Source of the DNA: an uncultured Bacteroidia bacterium
GTDB taxonomy: Bacteria; Bacteroidota; Bacteroidia; Bacteroidales; UBA932
DNA length: 64,000 bases
Assembly (NCBI GenBank): GCA_902774155.1
Contig: CACYHF010000001.1
Span: forward strand, 26,843 to 90,842
Direction of reading: 5' to 3'
Shown: positions 28,432-50,444 of the stretch, piece after piece
Position numbering within the stretch: position 1 is the first letter of the stretch
Layout of the letters: every line of letters begins with the position of its first letter
Translations under genes and position numbers: made by a program
The notes under the pieces: model-generated
Seen by the model: only the letters and a program-made list of their open reading frames with translations
Database searches by the model: none
Told to the model about the DNA's origin: nothing

Positions 28432-31029
28432 ATGCATCTGAGACGGATACTTTGCGCTACGCTGCTGCTCCTGGGGGGAATGCTCCTGCAGGCGCAGGAA
28501 GTGCGGAGTGGCATCGAAATAGATTATAACCATCCGCGGAAATACAAGGTGGGTGGTGTGCGTGTGGAGGGAAACCGTTACTTTAACGAGCACCAGATCC
28601 TGCAGCTGATCGGCTTGCAGCAGGGACAGGAGGTAACCGTTCCGGGAGAAGACATTACCGGTATTGTGAAGCGCCTGGTGGCCCAGCGCTACTTTGAAGA
28701 TGTGGCCGTAGTTTTGGACTCCCTCAACCATCAGGCCGATACAGCCTGGTTCACGGTGGCCATCCGGGAGCGTCCGCGCGTTTCACGCTGGACCTATTCC
28801 GGGGTCAAGAACAGTGAACGAAAAGACCTCCAGGAACGTTTGAACCTGCGTCCGGGCCGTGAGTATTCGGATTATGTGAAAAAGACCTCGGAAGACATCA
28901 TCAAGCGTTATTATAAAGAAAAAGGCTTTCTCCAGGTGAAGGTGGACACGCAGGTGCAGCAGGATACCATGATCCGCAGTGCCATCCGCGTGAACTTCGC
29001 GGTGGACAAAGGCAAGAAAATCCGGATCCGGCACATCAACTTCCAGGGCAACACGGACGTAAAGGAGTACAAGTTGGCCAAAAATATGAAGGATACCCAC
29101 TCCAACAAGTGGTACAACTTCTTCAAATCCAAGAAATTCAAGGAGAAAGAATATCAGACAGACAGGAAAACGGTGCTGGATGCCTTCAATGAGGCCGGTT
29201 ACCGGGACGCCCGTCTGGTGCGGGATTCCCTCTATTTCCTGGAAGACGGCAAGCACATGGACATCGACATGGTGTTCGAGCAAGGCCGGAAGTACTATTT
29301 CCGCAATATCAGTTGGACGGGCAACGCCGTCTATCCCTCAGAGGTGCTCAATGAAATCCTCCAGGTGAAAAAGGGCGACGTGTACGACCTTGTCACCATG
29401 GAGAAGCGCCTGCATGGCGGCGGAAAGGAGAGCGAATACGACGTGTCTAAATTGTACCGCGACAACGGCTACCTGTTCTTCAACATCACGCCCGTGGAGG
29501 TGAATATCCAAAACGACTCGGTAGACGTGGAACTCCGGATTTCGGAGGGTAAGCCCGCTACCCTGAATGAGATTGTGATCAACGGCAACGACCTCACCAA
29601 CGAAAAGGTGGTCCGCCGCCAGCTCTTCACCCGTCCCGGCTATCTGTTCAGCCAGACAGACTTTGAACGTTCCATCCGTGAAATCGCTTCCATGGGCCAG
29701 TTCGATCCGGAAGCTGCCATGGATCCCAGCCGCGGCTGGTCCATCGTTCCCAACCAGATCAACAGCACGGTGGACATTATCTATAATGTGACGGAGAAAC
29801 CTTCTTCCCAGTTGGAACTCTCCGGTGGTTGGGGTGGCAATACCTTCGTACTCACGGCGGGTGTGAGTTTCAACAACTTCTCCACGCGCCGCATGTTCGA
29901 GAAAAAGGCATGGCGGCCCGTTCCGCTGGGCGACGCCCAGAACCTGGCCTTCCGTTTCCAGACCAACGGCCGGTATTATACCAACTTGAGCGCCAGCTTT
30001 ACGGAGCCCTGGCTCTTCGGCAAGAAACCCACATCCCTGAGTATCTCCGGCTATTATTCCAGAATGACGGACAGCTACCTGGCCATCGGCATCCTGTCAA
30101 CGGACAAGATGTTTGAGGTATACGGCTTCAACGCAGGTCTGGGTACGCGGCTCAAGTGGCCGGACAGCTATTTCGTCCTGTACAACAACCTGAGCTGGCA
30201 AACTTACCGGCTCACCAACTGGACCAACAGCTATTTTGCCTTCAACGACGGTACTTCGCACAATTTCAGCTATACGCTCTCCTTGTCGCGTAACTCCTCC
30301 GACCAGCAGATTTATCCCCGTAGTGGTTCCGAATTCTCCGCCTCGGTGCAGGTTACCCCGCCGTACTCCCTCTTCCGGAAATATACCTGGGCCACGGACG
30401 ACGACGGCAACCGCGTGAAACAGCCCGTGAACAGCTGGAGAGACGTGAATTACGACGAATGGACATCGGCCGAACGGTACAAATGGATCGAGTACCACAA
30501 GTGGAAATTCAACGGAACCATCTATACCAAGCTGTGGAAAGACCTGGTCCTGATGACCCGTGCCCAGTTCGGTTACCTGGGCTACTTCAACCGCAATTGG
30601 GGCTATTCTCCCTTCGAGAACTTCCAGGTGGGCGGTGACGGTATGTCGGGCTATATGACCTATGGCGCAGAAATTATCTCGTTGCGTGGTTACGAGGATT
30701 ATTCCCTCACGCCGCGGAAGATTACCCCTTACAGCCAGAACGGCGTAAGTTATGCGGGTAACGTATATGACAAGTTCACCGTAGAACTCCGCTATCCCGT
30801 GATCCTGCAGCCTCAGTCCACCATCTATGCCCTGGTATTCCTGGAGGGCGGTAACTGCTGGAGCGACATCCGCGAATTCAATCCATTCCAGATTAAGCGC
30901 AGTGCAGGTGTGGGCGTGCGCGTGTTCCTGCCCATGATCGGCCTGCTGGGTGTAGACTGGGGTTATGGCTTCGACGACGCCACCAACGGCGGCAGCCAGT
31001 TCCACTTCGTCCTGGGTCAGCAATTCTAG
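28432..31029 (+). CDS. bamA: outer membrane protein assembly factor BamA
   Basis: BamA is the outer-membrane insertase of the BAM complex. I chose ATG 28432 (MHLRRILCATLLLLGG, signal peptide to about AQE) over an in-frame TTG 9 bp upstream. The 865-residue protein has about five POTRA domains (residues 40-420; for example VGGVRVEGNRYFNEHQI and RHINFQGNTDVKEYKLA) and a C-terminal Omp85 beta-barrel with the conserved YRTELR-like VELRYPV strand and terminal FHFVLGQQF ending in an aromatic residue, as outer-membrane proteins do. It lies in the usual place after uppS and before skp. Confidence 0.96.
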   Translation: MHLRRILCATLLLLGGMLLQAQEVRSGIEIDYNHPRKYKVGGVRVEGNRYFNEHQILQLIGLQQGQEVTVPGEDITGIVKRLVAQRYFEDVAVVLDSLNHQADTAWFTVAIRERPRVSRWTYSGVKNSERKDLQERLNLRPGREYSDYVKKTSEDIIKRYYKEKGFLQVKVDTQVQQDTMIRSAIRVNFAVDKGKKIRIRHINFQGNTDVKEYKLAKNMKDTHSNKWYNFFKSKKFKEKEYQTDRKTVLDAFNEAGYRDARLVRDSLYFLEDGKHMDIDMVFEQGRKYYFRNISWTGNAVYPSEVLNEILQVKKGDVYDLVTMEKRLHGGGKESEYDVSKLYRDNGYLFFNITPVEVNIQNDSVDVELRISEGKPATLNEIVINGNDLTNEKVVRRQLFTRPGYLFSQTDFERSIREIASMGQFDPEAAMDPSRGWSIVPNQINSTVDIIYNVTEKPSSQLELSGGWGGNTFVLTAGVSFNNFSTRRMFEKKAWRPVPLGDAQNLAFRFQTNGRYYTNLSASFTEPWLFGKKPTSLSISGYYSRMTDSYLAIGILSTDKMFEVYGFNAGLGTRLKWPDSYFVLYNNLSWQTYRLTNWTNSYFAFNDGTSHNFSYTLSLSRNSSDQQIYPRSGSEFSASVQVTPPYSLFRKYTWATDDDGNRVKQPVNSWRDVNYDEWTSAERYKWIEYHKWKFNGTIYTKLWKDLVLMTRAQFGYLGYFNRNWGYSPFENFQVGGDGMSGYMTYGAEIISLRGYEDYSLTPRKITPYSQNGVSYAGNVYDKFTVELRYPVILQPQSTIYALVFLEGGNCWSDIREFNPFQIKRSAGVGVRVFLPMIGLLGVDWGYGFDDATNGGSQFHFVLGQQF

Positions 31030-46541: not shown

Positions 46542-48353
46542 ATGAGAAAACTATTGATTTCAATAACACTGCTTCTTTGCTGCCTGAGTCTTTTTGCCAA
46601 GCCGGCCAAGCCGGGTTATATCAAGTATAAGCAGCCGGATGGCACCACTATCGAGATTATGCGCCACGGCGATGAATGGGCCTCCTGGACCACCAACAGG
46701 CGCGGTCAGGTGATTCACAAGGATGCCGACGGTTTCTTCCGGGAAGTGAGCGGCATGACCCCTGCCCGGGCCCGACAAATGGCCTCTGTCCGTCGCCGGG
46801 CCATCCAGGAGATGCAGGCATCGTCCTCGGTCCCTATGCGCGCTCCTGCTCATATAGCTTTCGGGCAGAAGCATTTCCTGGTGATCCTGGTGGAATTCAG
46901 TGACTTGGATTTTACCATCGAGGAGCCCCAGCAGGCCATCAGTGCCATGCTCAACCAGAACGGGTATTCCCAGAACGGGGCCACGGGCAGCGCCAGGGAT
47001 TACTATTATGATAATTCTCACGGTCTGTTCGAACCCATCTTCGATGTGGTGGGTCCGGTGAAACTGGAGAAGGACAAGGCCTATTATGGCCACAATGTGG
47101 ATAACAGCGATGCCAATGCCGCGGAGGCCATCCGCGATGGCTGTGTCCTGGCCGATGAACAGGTGGATTTTTCCGACTACGACAACGACGGTGACGGAGA
47201 AGTGGATTTAGTGTATGTAATCTATGCCGGATTCGGCGAGGCCGACAGCAGCGACGACGATTCTATCTGGCCTCATCAATGGTATTTATCGTCTGCGGGT
47301 TATTCGCTTACCCAGGATGAGACGAAGATTGACCGCTATGCCTGCGGCTCCGAACTCATGGGAGATGGTAGGATGGACAGTATCGGCACCATCTGCCACG
47401 AATTCGGCCATGCCATGGGCCTGCCGGATTTTTACGATTCGGACTATGGCGAAAACGGCGAGACACCCGCCCTGTTCTACTTCTCCCTCATGTGCAGCGG
47501 GTCTTATGTGAACGACGGCTGGACGCCTCCGTATTTGAATATTATGGAACGGACCCTCCTGGGATGGGTGGACGAAAGCGCCCTGCAGGAATTCCCGAAG
47601 GACGGGGTGTATACCCTCACCAGTGTGGATGACAACCTGGCCTATAAAACCCTCACGGACACGGAAGGAGAGTACTTCATCTATGAGTGCCGGGATAACC
47701 ATGGTTGGGATCAGTATGTGCCGGCTACCGGGCTGCTGGTCTATCACGTGGACCAGTCCAACAGGAAGGTATCCATCAAGAGGGATGGCAGCCTTGCACA
47801 GGTAGAAGCCAGTTATTTGTGGGAGCATTGGAGAAATGATAACGCCATCAATGAAAACGGCAGCCATCCCTGCTTCTATATCATTCCGTCGGCCGACCAG
47901 AGCAACCTGATGTTCGGCTATCAATACTATGAGGGCTATGGCTACTATTACAGTCGCTCCAATGATCCTTATATCCCGTTCCCCGGCAAGAAGAAGGTAA
48001 CGACGTATGTGCCGGTGAGTTGGAATGGCGTAAGCGGAGATGTAGCCCTGTCGGAGATTGCCTATGCCGGAGGAAAGTCCACTTTCCGGGTCCGGGGTAT
48101 GGAATCCAACATCCTGGATTATCCCGTCATCAACAATCCGGGAAAGGGAAACTACACCGCCGGCAGCGTTTTCGCCCTGGAACTGAATGTTCCGGACGGT
48201 TATAAGGTGGGGAATGTGCGCTGGCTTATGGACGGTACGCAGGTGACAGATTCTACGGTAACCCTTACGGCGGGTCAGCACGTGATAGAGGCCGAAGTGA
48301 CCCGTCAGGTGGGTGAAAAGGATATTATTACATTGGAGATTGCAGTTAAGTAA
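46542..48353 (+). CDS. M6-family metalloprotease (immune inhibitor A-like)
   Basis: The 603-residue secreted protein has a signal peptide (to about FAKPAK), a propeptide-like N-terminal region (residues 25-100) and a zinc metalloprotease domain with H286-E-F-G-H290 followed by AMGLPDFYD, the extended HExxHxxGxxD motif of M6/metzincin-like enzymes. An EF-hand-like [11 protein letters not shown] (residues 212-222) probably binds calcium. The C-terminal ~90 residues form a beta-rich accessory domain. It is likely an extracellular or surface protease; substrates are unknown. Confidence 0.88.
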
Positions 48354-48371: not shown

Positions 48372-48403
48372 TTTGGAAGGAAAAATTTTTTTCTTACCTT
48401 TGC
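48372..48403 (+). promoter_or_regulatory. promoter of the tRNA-Glu / rpsT / tRNA-Pro unit
   Basis: TTTG at 48372-48375 is followed by a 19-nt spacer and TACCTTTGC at 48395-48403, the same two-part layout and spacing as the tRNA-His promoter at 16285. Confidence 0.75.
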
Positions 48404-48415
48404 AGTCCCAAGTTT

Positions 48416-48487
48416 GGTGGGTTCGTATAACGGTTAGTACTCGGGATTTTCATTCCCGCAATAGGAGTTCGATTCTCCTACCCACTA
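48416..48487 (+). tRNA. tRNA-Glu(TTC)
   Basis: The acceptor arm GGTGGGT / ACCCACT pairs with a terminal G-T, as in other Bacteroidota tRNA-Glu genes. The anticodon loop TTTTCAT (anticodon TTC) is closed by CGGGA/TCCCG and the T-arm is AGGAG-TTCGATT-CTCCT. The discriminator is A; no CCA is encoded. The 3' end abuts the truncated rpsT reading frame. Confidence 0.95.
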
Positions 48488-48489
48488 CC

Positions 48490-48723
48490 GCGCGTGCCGC
48501 CCGTCAGAGCGAGCGTCACCGCCTGCATAACAAGTATTATGCAAAGACCACGAGGAACGCCATCCGCGACCTCCGCAACACAACAGACAAGGCAGCAGCC
48601 CAGGAGAATGCTCCCAAGGTATATGCCATGATTGACAAACTCGCCAAGATCGGCGTTATCCACAAGAATAAGGCGTCCAACCTTAAGAGTGGTCTTCAGG
48701 TTTACATCAACAAGCTCGCCTAA
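48490..48723 (+). CDS. rpsT: 30S ribosomal protein S20, 5' end and start codon missing
   Basis: The frame encodes [20 protein letters not shown] and continues to VYINKLA, clearly S20, which binds 16S rRNA early in 30S assembly. S20 in Bacteroidota normally has about 84 residues and begins MANHKS. Here roughly the first eight codons, any leader and the start codon are absent: the frame runs without a break into tRNA-Glu and contains no ATG, GTG or TTG between the tRNA and the S20 core. All downstream sequence is intact (77 codons). Either a real deletion fused the tRNA to the gene or the assembly is collapsed here. tRNA-Pro follows 25 bp downstream. Confidence 0.85.
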
Positions 48724-48748: not shown

Positions 48749-48821
48749 CGGGATGTAGCGCAGTTGGTAGCGCACTACGTTCGGGACGTAGGGGTCGCTC
48801 GTTCGAGTCGAGTCATCCCGA
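48749..48821 (+). tRNA. tRNA-Pro(CGG)
   Basis: The acceptor arm CGGGATG / CATCCCG, the D-arm with AGCGCAGTTGGTAGCGC and the anticodon loop TTCGGGA (anticodon CGG) closed by CTACG/CGTAG make a full cloverleaf; the discriminator is A. It is transcribed with tRNA-Glu and rpsT and is followed by a terminator. Confidence 0.95.
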
Positions 48822-48825
48822 CAAA

Positions 48826-48849
48826 AGCAGGGTTCGCCCTGCTTTTTTT
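48826..48849 (+). terminator. terminator of the tRNA-Glu / rpsT / tRNA-Pro unit
   Basis: AGCAGGG, a TTCG loop and CCCTGCT are followed by a T run. It starts 5 bp after tRNA-Pro. Confidence 0.9.
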
Positions 48850-48878: not shown

Positions 48879-50444
48879 ATGAAAAAGATACTGCTTCTCC
48901 TTATTGCGCTCACTTGGGCGTTTTCCGGCTTTGCTCAAACTGCCAACGACGAAGGACTGCTCCGGCAGTGGATTCAGACCATCGCCTCGGACGAATTCGG
49001 CGGCCGGAAACCCATGACCCCGTATGAAGACCTTACGGTGAAGTATGTGGCAGACCAATTGGCAGGAATGGGGCTGGAGCCCGCCTTTGACGGCAGCTGG
49101 TTCCAGTCTTTCCAGATTGTCTCCGTCACGGCCAAGCCGGAAGGCGGGAAGTTCATCGTCAAGGGAAAGAAGAAAGCGCAGCTGAACTATCCCGAAGACC
49201 TGATTGTATGGACCTCCCGGGCCGCCGATGAAGTGAAACTCTCCAAGGCCGAATACGTCTTCTGCGGTTTCGGCATCCACGCGCCGGAGTTCGGATGGGA
49301 CGATTATGCCGATATTGACGTGAAAGGGAAAATCGTGATTGCAATGGTGAACGATCCCGGCTATTACGAGGCTTCGCTCTTTCAGGGCCGGAACATGACC
49401 TATTACGGCCGATGGCTGTACAAGTTCGAGGAAGCCATCCGTCGGGGTGCGGCCGGTTGTCTGGTGCTGCACAACACCGAGGCCGCCAGCTATGGCTGGC
49501 ACGTGTGCGTGAACGGCCATCTGGAGGACAACCTGGCCCTGTACAACCCCGAAACGGCCAATGCCGACGAACTGGCCGTAAAAGGATGGCTGCACGAAGA
49601 CGGCGCCCGGAAGCTCTTTACCGCGGCCGGAATGGACCTGGACCAGGCCCTGGCCGCCGCCAAGAAGCCCGGTTTCAAATCCTTCTCGCTCAAGGTGAAA
49701 GGCGATGTGAAGATGGCGGTTTCGTACAATATCCAGGAAACCCGCAACGTGGCGGGCTTCCTCCGCGGCACGCAGGAAGACAGCGGCACCGTGGTGATTT
49801 GCGCCCATTGGGACCACCTGGGAATCGGCAAGCCGGACCAGACCGGGGACTGCATTTACAACGGCGCGGCCGATAACGCTTCCGGCATGGCCGGCGCGCT
49901 GCTCACCGCCAAGCGTTTCACCACCCTGCAGGAACGTCCCCGCCGCAACATCCTCTTCTTCTTCCCCTCTTCGGAAGAGAGCGGTCTGTTCGGATCGGCC
50001 TATTATTGCGAGCACCCGGTGGTACCTATGGAGAAAACGGTTGCGTGCCTGAATTTCGAGAGCATCGGCCCGGCTCCGCTCACGCAGGATGTGGTGATTC
50101 TGGGCGGCGGCAACAGCGTCCTGGACAAGTATTATGTTGCCGCAGCGGCTGCGCAGGGGCGTTACATCTTCTTCGACGATGACAATTCCGACGGCTGGTT
50201 CTACCGCTCCGACCACTATAACTTTGTGAAAAAAGGCGTGCCCGCCGTGGTGATGGAGAACGGCCTTCAACTGGCCGATCCCAACAAACCCAACCAATAT
50301 CCCATGCCTGTCTGGTATCACAAGCCTTCGGACGAATACCACGAAGACTGGGACCTCGCCGGCACCCTGGCCAACGTAAACCTGGTCTACAGCGTAGCCC
50401 TCTCCCTGGCCAACGCCGATTACTTATCCTGGATAAAACGATAA
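48879..50444 (+). CDS. M28-family metallopeptidase, exported
   Basis: The 521-residue protein has a signal peptide (to about GFAQ) and an M28 zinc aminopeptidase domain with a PA-type insertion (about residues 130-230). Metal-site segments are ICAHWDHLGIG (His, Asp), NGAADNASGMA (bridging Asp), FFFPSSEESGLFGS (catalytic Glu pair) and SDHYNFVKKGVPAVV (His). It probably acts as a periplasmic or surface aminopeptidase or carboxypeptidase. A weak TATCTTCAC box lies 3 nt before the start. Confidence 0.9.
   Translation: MKKILLLLIALTWAFSGFAQTANDEGLLRQWIQTIASDEFGGRKPMTPYEDLTVKYVADQLAGMGLEPAFDGSWFQSFQIVSVTAKPEGGKFIVKGKKKAQLNYPEDLIVWTSRAADEVKLSKAEYVFCGFGIHAPEFGWDDYADIDVKGKIVIAMVNDPGYYEASLFQGRNMTYYGRWLYKFEEAIRRGAAGCLVLHNTEAASYGWHVCVNGHLEDNLALYNPETANADELAVKGWLHEDGARKLFTAAGMDLDQALAAAKKPGFKSFSLKVKGDVKMAVSYNIQETRNVAGFLRGTQEDSGTVVICAHWDHLGIGKPDQTGDCIYNGAADNASGMAGALLTAKRFTTLQERPRRNILFFFPSSEESGLFGSAYYCEHPVVPMEKTVACLNFESIGPAPLTQDVVILGGGNSVLDKYYVAAAAAQGRYIFFDDDNSDGWFYRSDHYNFVKKGVPAVVMENGLQLADPNKPNQYPMPVWYHKPSDEYHEDWDLAGTLANVNLVYSVALSLANADYLSWIKR

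Follow-up and report, generated by a model that had tools for sequence, protein, structure and literature searches.

Bacterial transcripts that join a tRNA gene to a protein-coding gene are known. In the thrT-tufB operon, for example, the protein gene comes with a leader and a start codon of the usual kind. The locus described here shares with thrT-tufB a protein gene that comes after a tRNA gene, presumably in one transcript, the protein gene in this case being rpsT, which encodes ribosomal protein S20, and the tRNA gene one for tRNA-Glu. However, whereas the protein gene of thrT-tufB and the rpsT genes of the relatives keep leader and start codon, the rpsT of the window alone is without them. 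The window is the whole stretch of DNA that was analysed, 64,000 nucleotides from an uncultured Bacteroidia bacterium (GCA_902774155.1, contig CACYHF010000001.1, positions 26,843 to 90,842). Taken at face value, it would hold a ribosomal protein gene that lacks a start codon and is translated from RNA left over by tRNA processing. A limited literature search returned no paper linking rpsT, tRNA-Glu and Bacteroides.

Two described systems come close. The Salmonella rpsT mutants with low S20 have in common with the window that S20 is reduced or absent, but they are defined laboratory mutants, as the available part of that report presents them (PMC7069363), whereas the window is represented by an uncurated assembly only. 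The other system is one of artefacts: the available part of Chen et al. (2020; PMC7111523) describes local assembly errors in metagenome-assembled genomes, with IDBA-UD particularly suspected, and in the portion available of Stewart et al. (2019; PMC6785717) IDBA_ud is named for one RUG genome. As in the errors of Chen et al., a short consensus stretch, probably without read support, would give rise to an incorrect protein-coding gene. Those errors were found by read mapping and the probable one in the window by comparison only; in the window, moreover, the trouble spot is made up of conserved genes that form a repeat between species.

An rpsT gene without a start codon behind tRNA-Glu

The window comes from contig 1, in an assembly of 2,428,135 bases in 88 contigs, with a completeness of 92.2% and a contamination of 3.6%. 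The named records nearest to this genome are uncultured Bacteroidales, and the name Cryptobacteroides stands on 3 of the 80 named records, which makes Candidatus Cryptobacteroides the probable genus. The features of the tRNA-Glu/rpsT/tRNA-Pro unit are as follows:

48395..48402, plus strand: TACCTTTG, Bacteroidetes -7 promoter-like element, read in the sequence and also found in relatives
48416..48489, plus strand: tRNA-Glu(UUC), called by ARAGORN as tRNA-Glu(TTC)
48489..48490, plus strand: abnormal junction at which 41 nt of the relative G005 are absent, located by comparison with relatives
48490..48723, plus strand: rpsT core, from S20 residue 8 to the stop, without start codon (PF01649)
48749..48822, plus strand: tRNA-Pro(CGG), the downstream neighbour, which also follows rpsT in most relatives
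48823..48846, plus strand: terminator-like hairpin following tRNA-Pro

The unit has a gene for a Peptidase_M6 protein (46542-48353) as its upstream neighbour and one for a Peptidase_M28 protein (48879-50444) downstream. The TACCTTTG element at 48395-48402 resembles what we take to be the Bacteroidetes -7 motif, and it is presumed to be the single promoter for tRNA-Glu and rpsT; a sigma-70 promoter scan of the locus found no promoter.

The S20 core adjoins the 3' end of tRNA-Glu(UUC) with 0 bases between them (48489/48490), and there is no run of N at this junction. Against PF01649 the core scored 68.6 bits (cut-off 29.5) over profile positions 8-83, and a second profile search gave 68 bits, starting from position 9. 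Its frame is open, and the protein is 97-99% identical to its nearest named homologues. The conserved N-terminus of S20 and the start codon are absent. The initial annotation, made from the sequence alone, had described an intact core whose N-terminus, start codon and leader were gone, which the PF01649 match and the sequence itself confirm. It had also stated that no ATG, GTG or TTG lies between tRNA-Glu and the core, and this proved correct: the in-frame TTG and GTG codons ahead of the core, at 48400, 48373, 48340 and 48313, are all upstream of tRNA-Glu, and the first in-frame ATG, at 48628, is within the core. The frame does run into the tRNA 3' end, as noted there, and stays open through tRNA-Glu as a 136-aa ORF from GTG 48313, but the open frame needs no special meaning. 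As for the N-terminal loss, its existence stood but its estimated size of about eight residues did not, since the comparison of spacing with a close relative, which had been proposed as a check, showed that G005 has 41 nt more; what is missing is exactly a 20-nt AT-rich leader plus 7 codons, the start codon included.

No further decay was seen in the remaining rpsT frame, although a very recent loss would look alike. A complete second rpsT, which had likewise been proposed as a check, was looked for by profile search throughout the assembly, and only the one S20 was found. The missing segment was not found on the other contigs either; of its two hits, one was the window locus again, on its S20 side, and the other had an E value of about 1.

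The normal arrangement in relatives

S20 was matched in 35 of the 36 same-genus genomes of the relatives search, and all 35 loci were read. In 32 of them tRNA-Glu is followed by a short AT-rich leader and an ATG, the remaining three being two contig edges (G027 and G035) and one lesion (G011). The rpsT start is ATG in 80/80 named loci, a set that is mostly ruminant, that partly duplicates genomes of the same-genus set and that may leave out the genome of the window or one very close to it. From other families of the order 22 genomes were sampled, and in 17 of them a spacer of 18-68 nt separates tRNA-Glu from the ATG of rpsT. The position of rpsT close behind tRNA-Glu is an ordinary conserved arrangement, both in the genus and in other families of the order. 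The junction of the window has no counterpart among the loci compared: a 24-mer spanning it occurred in the genome of the window alone, where L092 was listed, three further loci of that genome having been excluded in advance. No second assembly of this species was recognised.

In the genus loci read and in those 17 genomes of other families (window 48395-48723, L002-L031, L057 and L058), rpsT stands directly behind tRNA-Glu(UUC), apparently with no promoter of its own. The 5' end of the rpsT mRNA may be the point at which tRNA-Glu is cut off by 3' processing.

Lesions at the same place in other assemblies

Among 400 genomes of the genus, 346 had an S20 match. Reading 17 S20 loci, which had been chosen by eye and had mostly weak scores, revealed mid-contig N-terminal losses with differing break points in G318, G343 and G011, the gap in G343 being about 92 nt as counted by hand; most of the other partial matches among the 17 were contig edges. 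In G149, S20 was matched by the family search and had no match by protein comparison.

Indels of at least 2 nt between the tRNA and the rpsT start were present in 6 of the 30 loci nearest by DNA, window included (window -41, G157 -16, G342 -9, G365 -2, G150 +7 and G178 +6). Within the same 30 loci, G277 and G327 showed single-base differences, and five loci had paired one-base gaps that cancel out. Several of the lesions hit tRNA-Glu(UUC): the T-arm is removed in G157 (L125/L161, RUG12971), nine bases near the 5' end are lost in G342 (L123), two D-loop bases are lost in G365 (L124), and 6-7 nt are inserted at the acceptor end in G150 (L116/L169, RUG619) and G178 (L117). The G157 and G150 loci are identical in 390/390 bases to the public RUG12971 and RUG619 loci. 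G011 has lost most of its tRNA-Glu(UUC), and a second UUC copy was not seen in this 85% complete assembly. Because a cell can hardly dispense with tRNA-Glu(UUC), the lesions that wreck it are not real, and the gap in the window is of the same kind and at the same place. Contigs also break here: that of G146 ends exactly at the right break point of the window, and those of G346, G093, G134 and G151 end within the tRNA-Glu/rpsT stretch, the last three in or just after tRNA-Glu(UUC).

Other conserved genes as controls

The window's own genome (G000) is damaged elsewhere too. Its S15 gene (L242, G000:C17:5534-5752) has lost 24 nt, corresponding to eight residues of the core. S15 was matched in 348 of the 400 genus genomes, and 32 genomes with weak scores were picked by eye, from which 30 loci were obtained and read. 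Mid-contig S15 lesions were present in 16 of the 32 inspected genomes, in 10 of them with a frame change (G173, G236, G221, G143, G178, G332, G116, G347, G150 and G308, some partly duplicated) and otherwise in frame (G000, G388, G171, G033, G157 and G360); many of the remaining inspected loci were contig edges. Frame changes in S15 across so many species are not biology. Nor is S20 special compared to S15: mid-contig N-terminal losses of S20 were found in four genomes (the window's, G318, G343 and G011) versus the sixteen with S15 lesions.

A further site in the same assembly is on contig 22 (L156 near 1044-1070, about 30943-30969), where the promoter and 5' part of a tRNA-Glu gene pass into unrelated sequence in mid-contig, and where ARAGORN called no tRNA-Glu. 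In the relatives read, a promoter of this type leads a complete tRNA-Glu(CUC). The broken tRNA-Glu(CUC) could be real, this tRNA perhaps being dispensable, and it still fits the pattern of artefacts. Counting against an artefact, the S12 gene of this genome is intact, so not every conserved gene was hit, and G318, G343 and G011, which have rpsT lesions, showed normal S15 scores. The lack of Ns at the junction and the absence of the lost segment from the other contigs count on the same side.

The two kinds of lesion tended to coincide. S15 was matched in 23 of the 30 nearest genomes. All four with a tRNA-Glu/rpsT lesion (G000, G150, G157 and G178) also had an S15 lesion, whereas none of the other 19, judged by score only, was among the weak S15 scorers, the lowest being G406 at 1.0e-28. 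A Fisher test of 4/4 versus 0/19, run after the data had been seen, gave 1.1e-4. A prior count over all genomes, which preceded the discovery of the lesions in G178, G342 and G365 and for which only part of the 348 genomes had been screened for tRNA lesions, gave 0.0015, or 0.016 minus the window's genome.

A repeat shared between species and the probable origin of the gap

Of 435 locus pairs with a leader anchor, at least 10 of which look like one genome in two copies, 304 agreed without a mismatch over 100 bp or more across the leader, and in 39 the identity reached 141 bp or more. Leaving aside the window's own, 27 of 116 rows matched the left arm exactly for 95 nt or longer. Judged by these identities, the tRNA-Glu/rpsT stretch qualifies as a repeat that short reads would not resolve. 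A repeat of such length is at least as long as the k-mers of assemblers, and consequently related species in one sample are indistinguishable there. A two-N join in the adjacent tRNA-Pro of a near relative, UBA2716, points the same way and stands in the public record too.

We propose the following origin for the gap. The stretch of tRNA-Glu, leader and rpsT start is near-identical among many related and probably co-living species, and for this reason short reads would fail to carry the assembler through it by a unique path; the two flanks would then have been joined and 41 nt dropped. That the junction is not supported by reads is something we infer, as is the assembly step responsible. In the living cell rpsT is most likely normal, with its ATG about 20 nt after tRNA-Glu. 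On the comparisons presented here, the gap in the window is very probably a local error of assembly in this metagenome-assembled genome and not a start-less S20. The initial annotation had allowed for a local collapse of the assembly, and this branch gained support from the comparable lesions that other assemblies have in this very place, some of them wrecking the tRNA, and also from S15 and tRNA-Glu(CUC), both damaged in the assembly of the window. Its biological branch, in which S20 starts non-canonically on RNA cut away from tRNA-Glu or else the gene is dead, received no positive support, and the normal leader and ATG in 32/35 same-genus loci, together with the ATG of the 80/80 named loci, speak against it.

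Both parts of that biological branch deserve to be weighed. A real 41-bp deletion in the strain would leave rpsT without a start as a recent null allele, the loss of S20 being tolerated at a fitness cost. It would take the sequence as given and would agree with the single S20 of the assembly, and S20-less mutants of enteric bacteria are viable. According to the available part of the Salmonella work, 30S subunits without S20 are defective in initiation, hence can form (PMC7069363). However, we consider such a deletion very unlikely, given that the like lesions at the same place include those that wreck tRNA-Glu(UUC), that this assembly has damage in S15 as well, and that a clean tRNA-Glu to tRNA-Pro locus free of rpsT was present in no relative read. 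We would also regard as highly improbable that the window's genome, G318 and G343, all related gut Bacteroidales, carry real and independent deletions, with S20 either dispensable or made from the shortened frame without a canonical start. As to a functional start-less S20, translated either from the RNA that 3' processing of tRNA-Glu would set free or through the tRNA from a TTG or GTG ahead of it, it could appeal to the frame that is open as far as GTG 48313, to the conserved tRNA-Glu/rpsT arrangement and to a core that is otherwise normal; but the upstream in-frame starts precede the tRNA, the nearest of them lying within the element presumed to be the promoter, the break points of the other shortened loci fall at different codons, and no relative read has an alternative start, so we give this reading almost no credence. 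The start-less rpsT of the window is probably not a real feature.

Three other explanations were considered and rejected. A mis-join through a second, identical tRNA-Glu is unlikely: the six second copies in relatives are the CTC isoacceptor at other loci, the other copy of the window's genome is a broken piece, and the peptidase gene upstream in the window is syntenic with that of G005. The position of the break suggested the scar of an integrative element at the 3' end of the tRNA, but the lesions of G011, G157, G342 and G365 are inside the tRNA and similar lesions also occur in S15. Finally, with regard to a loss of rpsT in the genus, nine genomes at least 90% complete lacked an S20 match; in G093, G134 and G151 a contig ends in or just after tRNA-Glu(UUC), the search for the tRNA-Glu(UUC)/rpsT locus found nothing in the remaining six, and in none of the nine was an rpsT-free tRNA-Glu to tRNA-Pro locus seen.

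If the gap is an artefact, as we favour, then short and highly conserved genes (rpsT, rpsO, tRNA-Glu) are often damaged in mid-contig in the drafts of this genus, with nothing to mark the damage, and filtering by completeness does not catch the damaged drafts. Surveys of gene loss, tRNA sets and odd start codons that use such drafts would need a check for inter-species repeats.

Two further observations were made at these genes. In G066, a genome 98% complete, S20 (L081, G066:C14:36595-36807) has a frame change near its C-terminus, and S15 is also split, across two contigs. In G005, the public UBA2716, two Ns take the place of a longer sequence within the tRNA-Pro beside rpsT (L035 1238-1239, L166 2137-2138), and this site is a scaffold join in a conserved tRNA.
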